NCBI RefSeq assembly: GCF_000708755.2
Contig: NZ_JGVU02000002.1
Span: 248,001-312,000 of the forward strand
Length of the DNA: 64,000 nt
Origin: Metabacillus indicus LMG 22858
Lineage (GTDB): Bacteria > Bacillota > Bacilli > Bacillales > Bacillaceae
Direction of reading: 5' to 3'
This document shows positions 10,388 to 54,050 of the stretch, in pieces. The position numbers were made by a program, and so were the translations under genes. The notes beneath the pieces were generated by a model. That model made no database searches and was not told where the DNA came from. It saw only the letters and a list, made by a program, of their open reading frames with translations. Each line of letters starts with the position of its first letter. Within the stretch, counting starts at the first letter, position 1.

Positions 10388-10494
10388 AACTTATCCAGAG
10401 AGGCGGAGGGAACTGGCCCGGTGAAGCCCGGCAACCTGCATGCGTGCAAGGTGCTACATCCAGCAAAATGAAACCCATTTTGGAAGATAAGGTT
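10388..10494 (+). promoter_or_regulatory. S-box (SAM-I) riboswitch
   Basis: The P1 stem forms between AACTTATC (10388-10395) and GATAAGGTT (10486-10494). Between them are the conserved S-box blocks AGAGAGGCGGAGGGA, the P2 arms around GGCCCGGTGAAGCCCGGCAACC, and the P3/P4 hairpins. When S-adenosylmethionine binds, the terminator at 10506-10532 is favoured and the sulfate-assimilation operon is off; low SAM lets transcription through. This links cysteine-precursor synthesis to methionine/SAM status. Confidence 0.95.
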
Positions 10495-52053: not shown

Positions 52054-53043
52054 GTGAGTTTCTTTAAAAAGTTAAAAGATAAATTTACACAGCAGCAGGA
52101 GCCTGATGCTTCACCGGAAAAGTATAAAGAGGGGCTTGCGAAAACGAGAGTATCATTTTCTGAACGCGTCAATAATCTCGTTGCCCGCTACCGCAAAGTA
52201 GATGAAGAGTTTTTTGAAGAGCTTGAGGAAGTACTGATTGGCGCGGATGTAGGCGTAGCAACAGTGATGGACCTGATAGATGAGCTGAAGATGGAAGTAA
52301 AGCGGCGGAATATTCAGGACTCAAAAGATGTAAGATCAGTGATTTCCGAGAAGCTTGTTGAGATTTATGAAGGAGAAGATGAAGAGTCTCCAAAGCTTAA
52401 CATTCGGGAAGGGCGCCTAAATGTGATTCTTTTTGTCGGCGTAAACGGAGTCGGCAAAACAACATCCATCGGCAAGCTTGCCCACAGGCTGAAGCAGGAA
52501 GGCAAATCAGTCCTCCTTGCAGCAGGAGATACTTTCCGTGCAGGCGCAATTGAGCAGCTGGAAGTCTGGGGAGAGCGTGCGGGAGTGGATGTAATTAAGC
52601 AGTCCGCAGGCTCAGACCCTGCAGCCGTCATGTTTGATGCAGTTCAGGCAGCAAAAGCAAGAAAAACGGACGTGCTGATCTGCGATACAGCAGGACGCCT
52701 GCAAAACAAGGTCAATCTCATGAACGAACTCGAAAAGGTAAAACGGGTCATCGAGCGCGAAATCCCGGGTGCTCCGCATGAGGTCCTTCTGGCTCTCGAC
52801 GCGACCACGGGCCAGAACGCCATGGTGCAGGCAAAGCAGTTTTCCCAGGCGACAAATGTCACAGGCATCGTGCTTACAAAGCTTGACGGAACGGCAAAAG
52901 GCGGCATCGTCCTCGCCATCCGCAATGAACTGAGCATCCCTGTAAAACTTGTCGGCTTAGGCGAAAAAATGGACGACCTCCAGGAATTTGACGCAGAACA
53001 GTACGTCTACGGCTTGTTTGCGGATCTTGTAGAAGAAGCATAG
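52054..53043 (+). CDS. ftsY: Signal recognition particle receptor FtsY
   Basis: Membrane-associated SRP-family GTPase that receives ribosome-SRP complexes and delivers them to SecYEG. The 329-residue protein has a short basic N-terminal region (SFFKKLKDKFTQQQ), an N domain, and the G domain with GVNGVGKTT (129-137), DTAGRLQNK and TKLDGTAKGG. The GTG start at 52054 follows GAGGATGAAGC. It has no long acidic A domain, as usual in Bacillus. Its partner Ffh is encoded 1 kb downstream. Confidence 0.97.
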   Translation: MSFFKKLKDKFTQQQEPDASPEKYKEGLAKTRVSFSERVNNLVARYRKVDEEFFEELEEVLIGADVGVATVMDLIDELKMEVKRRNIQDSKDVRSVISEKLVEIYEGEDEESPKLNIREGRLNVILFVGVNGVGKTTSIGKLAHRLKQEGKSVLLAAGDTFRAGAIEQLEVWGERAGVDVIKQSAGSDPAAVMFDAVQAAKARKTDVLICDTAGRLQNKVNLMNELEKVKRVIEREIPGAPHEVLLALDATTGQNAMVQAKQFSQATNVTGIVLTKLDGTAKGGIVLAIRNELSIPVKLVGLGEKMDDLQEFDAEQYVYGLFADLVEEA

Positions 53044-53051
53044 GATAAATG

Positions 53052-53088
53052 AAAGCCGTTCCCTTTGTGAAAGAGGGGCGGTTTTTTT
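53052..53088 (+). terminator. Terminator after ftsY
   Basis: AAAGCCGTTCCCTTT pairs with AAAGAGGGGCGGTTT (several G-U pairs, small loop) and enters a seven-T run. It ends the rnc-smc-ftsY series. Confidence 0.85.
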
Positions 53089-53122
53089 ATGGAACAATGA
53101 AGATGACTGTTTTGGAAGGAAA

Positions 53123-53240
53123 CTGGGAAATTTCAAGTTAACAGGGGATTTTGGCAAGTAAAGTGGCTGGTTTTTCAAGTGAAAAAGGAAGTTATTCAAG
53201 TATTCATTAAATAATGGCAAATAAATAAGAGTTTAGCGAA
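53123..53240. repeat. Phased CAAGT block A (21-bp period)
   Basis: CAAGT starts at 53134, 53155, 53176 and 53197, with a CAAAT variant at 53218: five units at exactly 21-bp spacing. The block opens with CTGGGAAATTT. The bases just before each motif follow the pattern TT, GG, TT, TT, GG, which is almost the same in block B. No start codon or ribosome site opens a frame through it. Confidence 0.85.
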
Positions 53241-53349
53241 CTAGGACGAAGCTGCAGAGCTGCACAGGTTGAATCAGATGCCCAAAAGCAAGTAGAGGGA
53301 CAATAATTGGCAGGAATGCCGTATTCCTCACTTCTAAATTAGGAGGTAG

Positions 53350-53480
53350 CCGGGAAATTTCAAGTAAACACGGGATTTAAGCAAGTAATGGATCTGGATT
53401 TTCAAGTAAAGTAAGAAGAAATTCAAGTGTTTCTTCTAAAATGGCAAGTAAAATAAAATTCCGGTGCTCAGTTTAGAGAC
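53350..53480. repeat. Phased CAAGT block B (21-bp period)
   Basis: CAAGT starts at 53361, 53382, 53403, 53424 and 53445, again exactly 21 bp apart, 227 bp downstream of block A. It opens with CCGGGAAATTT, and unit by unit it resembles block A more than its own neighbours, so the whole five-unit block was duplicated. Both end near a GTTTAG motif. The sequence between the blocks (53241-53349) shows no gene. Confidence 0.85.
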
Positions 53481-53519
53481 ATGTTGGGGCGATTCAAGCT
53501 TTTCGCATTGTCCAGCTCC

Positions 53520-53616
53520 ATCAGCCAGCTCCTCCGCCAGAACAAAATCCCCCAAAAAGTCAAACCCGGACTTTTCGGGGGATTTCTTTTTTGTCTGTCG
53601 GAGCTAAACGGCTGAT
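53520..53616. repeat. Nested palindromic element with terminator tip
   Basis: Outer arms ATCAGCC (53520-53526) and GGCTGAT (53610-53616), middle arms around AGCTCCTCCGCCAGA and TCTGTCGGAGCT, and an inner terminator stem (53545-53585) lie on the same axis. The left flank TTGTCCAGCTCC resembles a short repeat common between Bacillus genes. The element looks like a REP-type dispersed palindrome that supplies a terminator. Confidence 0.7.
53545..53591. terminator. Strong bidirectional terminator before ylxM
   Basis: AAATCCCCCAAAAAGTC (53545-53561) pairs with GACTTTTCGGGGGATTT (53569-53585) with one mismatch, over a 7-nt loop, then CTTTTTTG. No gene ends close by on the plus strand, so its job may be to insulate ylxM-ffh. 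Confidence 0.85.
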
Positions 53617-53645
53617 TCCGCTTTTCTGGCAGTCAAGAAAAAAAC

Positions 53646-53717: not shown

Positions 53718-54050
53718 GTGATGCTTGAAAAGACAACGAGAGTGAATTACTTGTTTGATTTTTATCAATCGTTGTTAACACCAAAGCAAAAGAGCTATAT
53801 GTCGCTTTATTATCTGGATGATTACTCCTTGGGTGAAATTGCTGAAGAGTATGACATCAGCCGCCAGGCCGTCTATGATAATATTAAACGGACTGAGGCG
53901 ATGCTCGAACAATATGAAGAAAAATTATTGCTTTTTGAAAAATTTCAAAAGCGGCAGCAGCTGATACAACAGCTGAAAACAGCAGTGGCGGATCTGGACG
54001 GGAACGGACAGGTTTTATCGCTTGTTGAATCGCTTGAGAAATTAGATTAG
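53718..54050 (+). CDS. ylxM: YlxM/p13-family putative SRP-associated helix-turn-helix protein
   Basis: The 110-residue protein has a sigma-70 region 4-like helix-turn-helix ([20 protein letters not shown], then [20 protein letters not shown]) and a C-terminal coiled region. The family sits next to ffh throughout Firmicutes; in streptococci it binds SRP RNA and modulates Ffh/FtsY GTPase activity. The GTG at 53718 is preferred (AAAGGAGAG 8 bp upstream, N-terminus matching relatives); ATG 53721 is the alternative. It is 12 bp before ffh. Confidence 0.93.

Follow-up and report, generated by a model that had tools for sequence, protein, structure and literature searches.

Phased, directional CAAGT arrays behind genes in Metabacillus indicus and other Bacillales

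The gap between ftsY and ylxM of Metabacillus indicus LMG 22858 contains two blocks in which the pentamer CAAGT recurs five times at 21-bp steps, and arrays of the same design are present at other gene ends of this genome and in other genera of the Bacillales. The arrays keep a helical phase, conserve the motif over the spacers between its copies, point with transcription, lie behind genes with terminators before rather than after them, and have switched their word at shared loci of two Fictibacillus species. The arrays of the window, which is the whole stretch of 64,000 nucleotides analysed here, belong to a published and unexplained class of Bacillus repeats, 20–21 nt long, of constant length and variable sequence. 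To the reading that they are phased sites for a putative protein, which would oligomerise on one face of the DNA, we give a nearly even chance. Binding by a protein, its oligomerisation and a role for the resulting complex are what we infer from the pattern of the sequences.

The two blocks behind ftsY

The features of the gap and its flanking genes are the following.

52054..53043, + strand: ftsY, an open reading frame that scores 390 bits with the ftsY equivalog of NCBIfam, above its cut-off of 261
53060..53088, + strand: hairpin and T run behind ftsY, resembling an intrinsic terminator (stem 53060–53078, tail CGGTTTTTTT)
53112..53133, + strand: head of block 1, from alignment with 15 other elements and the start of the repeat
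53134..53222, + strand: block 1, five CAAGT units of 21 bp, the last being CAAAT (motif positions, shuffle test)
53339..53360, + strand: head of block 2, from the element alignment and the repeat comparison
53361..53449, + strand: block 2, five CAAGT units of 21 bp (motif positions, shuffle test)
53721..54050, + strand: ylxM, which follows the arrays and scores 116 bits with the YlxM equivalog of NCBIfam, above its cut-off of 80

An earlier note, made from the letters of this stretch, had placed the motif starts at 53134, 53155, 53176, 53197 and 53218 for the first block and at 53361, 53382, 53403, 53424 and 53445 for the second, and all ten positions are correct. The 21-bp step is exact throughout both blocks, and CAAGT is exact in nine of the ten units, the sole CAAAT being the unit that starts at 53218. 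The repeated block described there is real, but it extends further than was given: each copy is 114 bp long (53112–53225 and 53339–53452) and consists of a 22-bp head followed by five units at 21 bp. The copies lie 227 bp apart and are 76% identical, which bears out the proposed block duplication. Block 1 begins about 50 bp past the ftsY terminator. When the window was compared with 100 dinucleotide-preserving shuffles, as the note had suggested, the three-unit pattern CAAGT-N16 with at most one mismatch gave six matches in the window, all of them in these blocks, and none in the shuffles. A chance origin of the window array is excluded. Tandem Repeats Finder did not report the arrays of the window.

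By eye, a different dispersed repeat, GCTTTTC..GTCCAGCTCC..GTCTGTCGGAGCTAAACGG, is represented by one copy at positions 53490–53640, with a hairpin at 53565–53579 inside it and an inverted repeat with 17-nt arms (53545–53561 and 53569–53585). Similar stretches are found in the ftsY–ylxM gap of G006 and near yihY of G004, both members of the genus. Elsewhere in the window, Rfam identifies a SAM riboswitch (10388–10493) and a PyrR binding site (267–386).

Arrays in the genome and the genus

The search for further arrays that the note had proposed was run on the genome to which the window belongs (G000; 22 contigs totalling 4.13 Mb). When at most one mismatch is allowed, the three-unit pattern gives 39 matches, against one for the backward pattern. 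Two of the 39 (C5:28389 and C6:76964) are isolated and chance-like; together the matches form about 14 blocks at nine places, all intergenic. Neighbouring genes above NCBIfam cut-offs encode FtsY, YlxM, DnaB, PurA, an alpha-amylase, FabZ and YihY, and further neighbours, below the cut-offs of named families, a LacI-type regulator, an Ada-like protein and a Rieske-type protein. Three exact units are present in 12 blocks, all of which have five units except one with seven. At L042, and at L140, L144 and L185 of Psychrobacillus, the block of five to six units is itself in tandem at about 186–230 bp, with up to 36 units within one gap.

Sixteen elements, 12 from G000 and four from the sister species G004, were aligned without gaps; the block with seven units was set aside, as was a decayed one at L042. 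On average, two elements differ by 6.7% in CAAGT, by 12% in the AA that follows, by 33% in the two preceding bases, by 53% in the spacer of 12 bases and by 30% in the head. With spacers far more variable than the motif, the G000 set is not simple slippage DNA, in agreement with the earlier note. Since the arrays were discovered through their motif, which favours this outcome, a comparison of syntenic arrays in G000 and G004 counts more. Between six such pairs, aligned without gaps, 8 of 150 positions of CAAGT are changed, 6 of 60 of the following AA, 73 of 288 of the spacer and 29 of 132 of the head. The difference between motif and spacer has a p-value of 5.5 × 10−8, or of 2.5 × 10−4 with the motif changes doubled, a correction made because the G000 side had been chosen by its motif.

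Four of the seven genomes of the genus (G000, G004, G005 and G006) contain the three-unit pattern. Corresponding places were sought in six genomes through the flanks of eight G000 loci. In G004 an array is present at seven of the nine G000 loci, ftsY included, and is missing at yihY and fabZ; the syntenic arrays of the two species keep the 21-bp phase. Further arrays thus exist in the genome and the phase is retained in a sister species, where the note had named absence of the former and loss of the latter as grounds against its idea. Behind ftsY, G004 shows a single block, which lies at the edge of a contig. The G004 assembly breaks in the ftsY–ylxM gap (end of C1, start of C2), beside the array and another repeat. 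Of the relatives read at this gap in addition to G004, G002 has a gap of 184 bp and G006 one of 669 bp, with a different repeat family, both without an array. More distant genomes have no array at the places of dnaB–purA, the amylase gene and fabZ (five genomes each), yihY (four) and qcr (two). The place of the LacI-type gene was found in two more distant genomes, of which G006 has five units there. At this locus the array lies behind the same terminator in G000, G004 and G006, with 7, 5 and 5 units in the three genomes and spacers that can hardly be aligned. The G004 array L076 adjoins a gene without a match in G000.

Insertion borders were inspected at the two places where G004 has no array. 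At yihY, G000 is about 124 bp longer than G004, and in this one case the difference is flanked by 11-bp near-repeats, TGTTTTTGATT and TGTTTTCGTTA. At fabZ, the homology between the two genomes stops in the T run of the terminator.

Distribution, placement and change of word

A scan of GTDB genomes gives at least 111 stretches, many of them in Bacillales and the rest spread over phyla. Among the matches listed are Psychrobacillus, Fictibacillus, Ureibacillus, Planococcus, Kurthia and Neobacillus, together with Bacillus pinisoli, B. marasmi and M. idriensis. The three-unit pattern of the genus comparison also matches in G015, G025, G035 and G039, which are from outside the genus. The 35 stretches from a viral scan, with three to eight units, look on inspection like tandem repeats or chance matches. 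A pattern that is stricter and has another spacing occurs in seven of 299 genomes of the order, one of these being a 9-bp simple repeat and one irregular, and backwards in none of the 299. Spacings of 15–25 bp were allowed in 18 array-bearing genome entries, selected for having arrays (G072 and G325 are one genome): among the matches listed, all are spaced at 20–22 bp, and the reversed pattern has no match in any of the 18. Psychrobacillus G315 has as many as 125 matches, and Fictibacillus G316 has 76. The design, with GCAAGTAA, is common to several genera, and the spacers differ by genus. G021 and G022 match the backward control repeatedly and may contain phased arrays built on different words, or else repeats that are coding.

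The number of units is six in all 21 arrays of Fictibacillus G316 and five in 11 of 12 in G000, and near-constancy is limited to these two genomes. It varies elsewhere (either 4 or 6 units per array in F. terranigra and between 5 and 10 in G095), which speaks against reading the arrays as rows of protein sites, as do the regular spacers of G095, G072 and G324, which resemble a plain tandem repeat. Information in the middle of the spacer is low in the larger groups and higher in small or regular sets (G049, G095).

Placement was scored for 64 array clusters from ten groups, taking open reading frames of at least 150 aa as neighbours. As scored, 35 clusters are codirectional in the sense orientation, 2 codirectional in antisense, 18 convergent and 4 divergent, and 5 have a missing neighbour. 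One of the 35 (L036) is sense only by virtue of a 152-aa frame judged to be spurious, so 34 to 3 was used instead of 35 to 2: in codirectional gaps, 34 arrays point with transcription and 3 against it (p = 1.2 × 10−7), a count that does not separate the directions of transcription and replication. A hairpin with a T run is located within 160 bp before 24 of the 64 arrays and after 4 (p = 2.6 × 10−5). Compared with other gene ends, where 47 of 203 have one, terminators before arrays are in modest excess (p = 0.034); the terminator finder misses clear hairpins that are seen by eye (L038, for example), in arrays and controls alike.

A second word shows a similar disposition. TCGCGG, published as the signal of the B. 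weihaiensis repeats (PMC8161180), recurs with similar spacing in 41 of the 397 genomes examined from the order. Its backward control is present in 19 of the 397, so that the TCGCGG pattern alone is not clean. Of 70 TCGCGG arrays, 26 are codirectional-sense and 6 antisense (p = 5.3 × 10−4), 24 convergent, 7 divergent and 7 incomplete; a hairpin precedes 24 of the 70 and follows 10, and on the reverse strand one precedes 7. All 70 were kept, including arrays that by their distances are mutual orthologs (L390, L410, L413 and L420) and L384, a 10-bp simple repeat. Given the same direction bias, the rule of placement is seemingly not tied to one word. G140 contains 248 TCGCGG triplets in 3.2 Mb, far above all others of the 397, and in G107, G274, G280, G368 and others the backward TCGCGG control matches repeatedly, possibly owing to arrays of other words or to coding repeats.

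Within Fictibacillus the word itself changes. The 76 triplets of strain FJAT-27399 (G316) are all CAAGTAA, with none of GAGTAA, while F. terranigra (G317) has 13 of CAAGTAA and 29 of GAGTAA. Of 21 loci fetched from G316, 11 were sought in G317 and 10 found; one more pair was known by sequence. At least two units are kept in eight of these 11 pairs and not in the other three, whole units having been lost between the two species. At four of the eight shared loci (L351, L345, L339 and L335 of G316), GCAAGTAA becomes GTGAGTAA, with the phase kept and a like head. Replacement by another subfamily is the alternative to a change in place; the mixed array L376, in which spacers can be partly aligned to G316, favours a change in place, for that array at least. 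Taken with the absence of arrays from most corresponding places in distant members of the genus, the three losses in 11 Fictibacillus pairs mean that any benefit is weak. Many spacers of L332–L352 in G316 contain TGTCGAA at a fixed distance from CAAGT; this word, confined to Fictibacillus, is identical to the Spo0A box.

Possible explanations and known repeats

The phased contacts that the earlier note proposed are the best fit to these observations, with a protein that is putative. The interpretation given in that note is supported in part; it did not include the head, the position with respect to terminators, the direction, the change of word or the published class. A block would be a ready row of sites for a sequence-specific protein on double-stranded DNA, with the head marking the start of the row. 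The helical phase expected of a binding array for an oligomeric protein is present in the spacing of the listed genomes. As the sites are non-palindromic (core GCAAGTAA), face one direction and recur every two turns, protomers could align head to tail, and those on one face would oligomerise. Such a row would stand behind the end of a gene, often past its terminator, pointing with transcription. Its likeliest use may be as a polar protein barrier to read-through, or to polymerase still on the DNA once termination has taken place, and nucleoid anchoring would be another use of the same complex. The barrier role is a guess. The retention of RNA polymerase on DNA past termination (PMC6978322) would offer one, speculative, use for it, and the second terminator-like hairpin, after block 2 at 53565–53579, counts against a barrier behind a terminator.

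The main rival is a mobile origin, in which the arrays would be non-autonomous repeats whose putative machinery needs the phased motif and inserts it behind terminators in one direction, with no gain to the host. About 14 related blocks at nine places, two of them empty in G004, are what such a repeat would leave, and the extra 124 bp at yihY could, with its flanks, be an insertion with target duplication, although deletion between short repeats explains it equally well. The end of homology in the fabZ T run is a further point in its favour. Group IIC introns also insert behind terminators in fixed direction; no intron or reverse transcriptase is seen here, and the element measures 114 bp. The interval that separates the first unit from the terminator differs among arrays by tens of base pairs, no mobilising gene is seen in the 2.5-kb flanks of the nine arrays, and seven of nine places are common to G004 with the motif kept while spacers drift, which is more than an inert insertion needs. 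We regard a mobile origin as unlikely, though it deserves serious attention. A neutral satellite, gaining and losing whole 21-bp units and sharing its motif through youth or exchange, would account for the unit losses in Fictibacillus, for the unequal numbers at the LacI-type locus and for the regular spacers of three genomes. Unequal exchange should homogenise spacers too, which differ by 53% in the G000 set against 7% for CAAGT, and orientation and place should be random. The conservation of motif over spacer in the syntenic pairs appears to run counter to this explanation, which we consider improbable.

An RNA element, in which transcripts of the array would be bound at the repeated GCAAGUAA and serve as a sponge or to mark a 3' end, seems to us no less improbable than the satellite. 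It agrees with the strict sense orientation and with the transcription of 52-nt repeats in B. coagulans reported by Subirana and Messeguer (PMC8161180). Hairpins, however, precede the arrays more than they follow them, four stretches fold no better than their shuffles (z of 0.98, −1.80, −0.48 and −0.70), Rfam has no match at the arrays of the window, and the fixed spacing of 20–22 has no clear reason in single-stranded RNA. That the arrays encode a heptad repeat, in the QV or the AS frame, is very improbable. A 21-bp step comprises seven codons, an open QV frame is present in 8 of the 12 G000 arrays and in 17 of the 21 from G316, and frames of 90 and 127 aa run across the arrays of L036 and L037; still, every frame is interrupted in some arrays of the three largest groups and steps of 20 and 22 bp occur, as expected if, in line with the earlier note, the arrays are non-coding. 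The core AGTAA is also kept as DNA, with a serine codon that has no synonymous variants in the motif column counts. Intrinsic curvature, calculated from wedge parameters for 18 arrays, was rejected as the property kept (z averaging 0.77 and lying between −0.94 and 2.83).

The class to which the window arrays belong was described by Subirana and Messeguer in 2021 (PMC8161180), who counted 781 repeats of 20–21 nt among 4029 tandem repeats found by SATFIND in 176 Bacillus genomes, remarked on the two helix turns and suggested a polymerising protein or small RNAs. The likeness covers unit length (21 bp in both blocks, 20–22 bp among the matches listed), variable unit sequence (a spacer difference of 53% in the 16 elements), a short signal that is kept (here CAAGT), several arrays per genome and a location outside protein genes (here intergenic at nine loci); the class has a minimum of four units, and the window blocks have five each. 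Its signals are species-specific, as an observation of those authors and not a criterion, while GCAAGTAA is found in several genera. The head, the near-constant unit number (in two genomes), the fixed direction and the place at gene ends go beyond the description in that text, and the words terminator and orientation are absent from its main text. Sister papers are PMC6749651 and PMC8625621, and PMC8161180 cites a 2020 J Bacteriol paper of the same authors. In our searches of the literature other than that 2020 paper, neither the direction rule, the terminators before arrays, the near-constant unit number nor the Fictibacillus motif switch was found in print.

Two other kinds of repeat invite comparison. 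The BIME/REP sequences of enterobacteria are likewise short, dispersed repeats at gene ends for which protein binding has been proposed, but they form palindromic hairpins, while the present arrays are directional and phased and fold no better than chance. MraZ-type and iteron arrays are helically spaced direct repeats of a small non-palindromic word with a known oligomeric reader; they are located at promoters or replication origins, in contrast to the gene ends found here.

More broadly, the Bacillales may possess a diverging family of reader proteins that polymerise on phased words (GCAAGTAA, GTGAGTAA, TCGCGGAA) behind genes, in the direction of transcription, as a polar chromatin-like barrier past terminators. 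Word and reader would co-evolve and be exchangeable between sister species, with the places constant. This extension is doubtful, and we put it forward as a conjecture. The 20–21 nt Bacillus repeats have so far been catalogued without a function. The rule of placement, the conservation of word over spacer and the change of word turn them into a testable system, in which a block can serve directly as bait, GTGAGTAA and GCAAGTAA are natural controls for each other, and the geometry is predicted. Should a reader protein be found, it would represent a novel type of nucleoprotein structure at bacterial gene ends.
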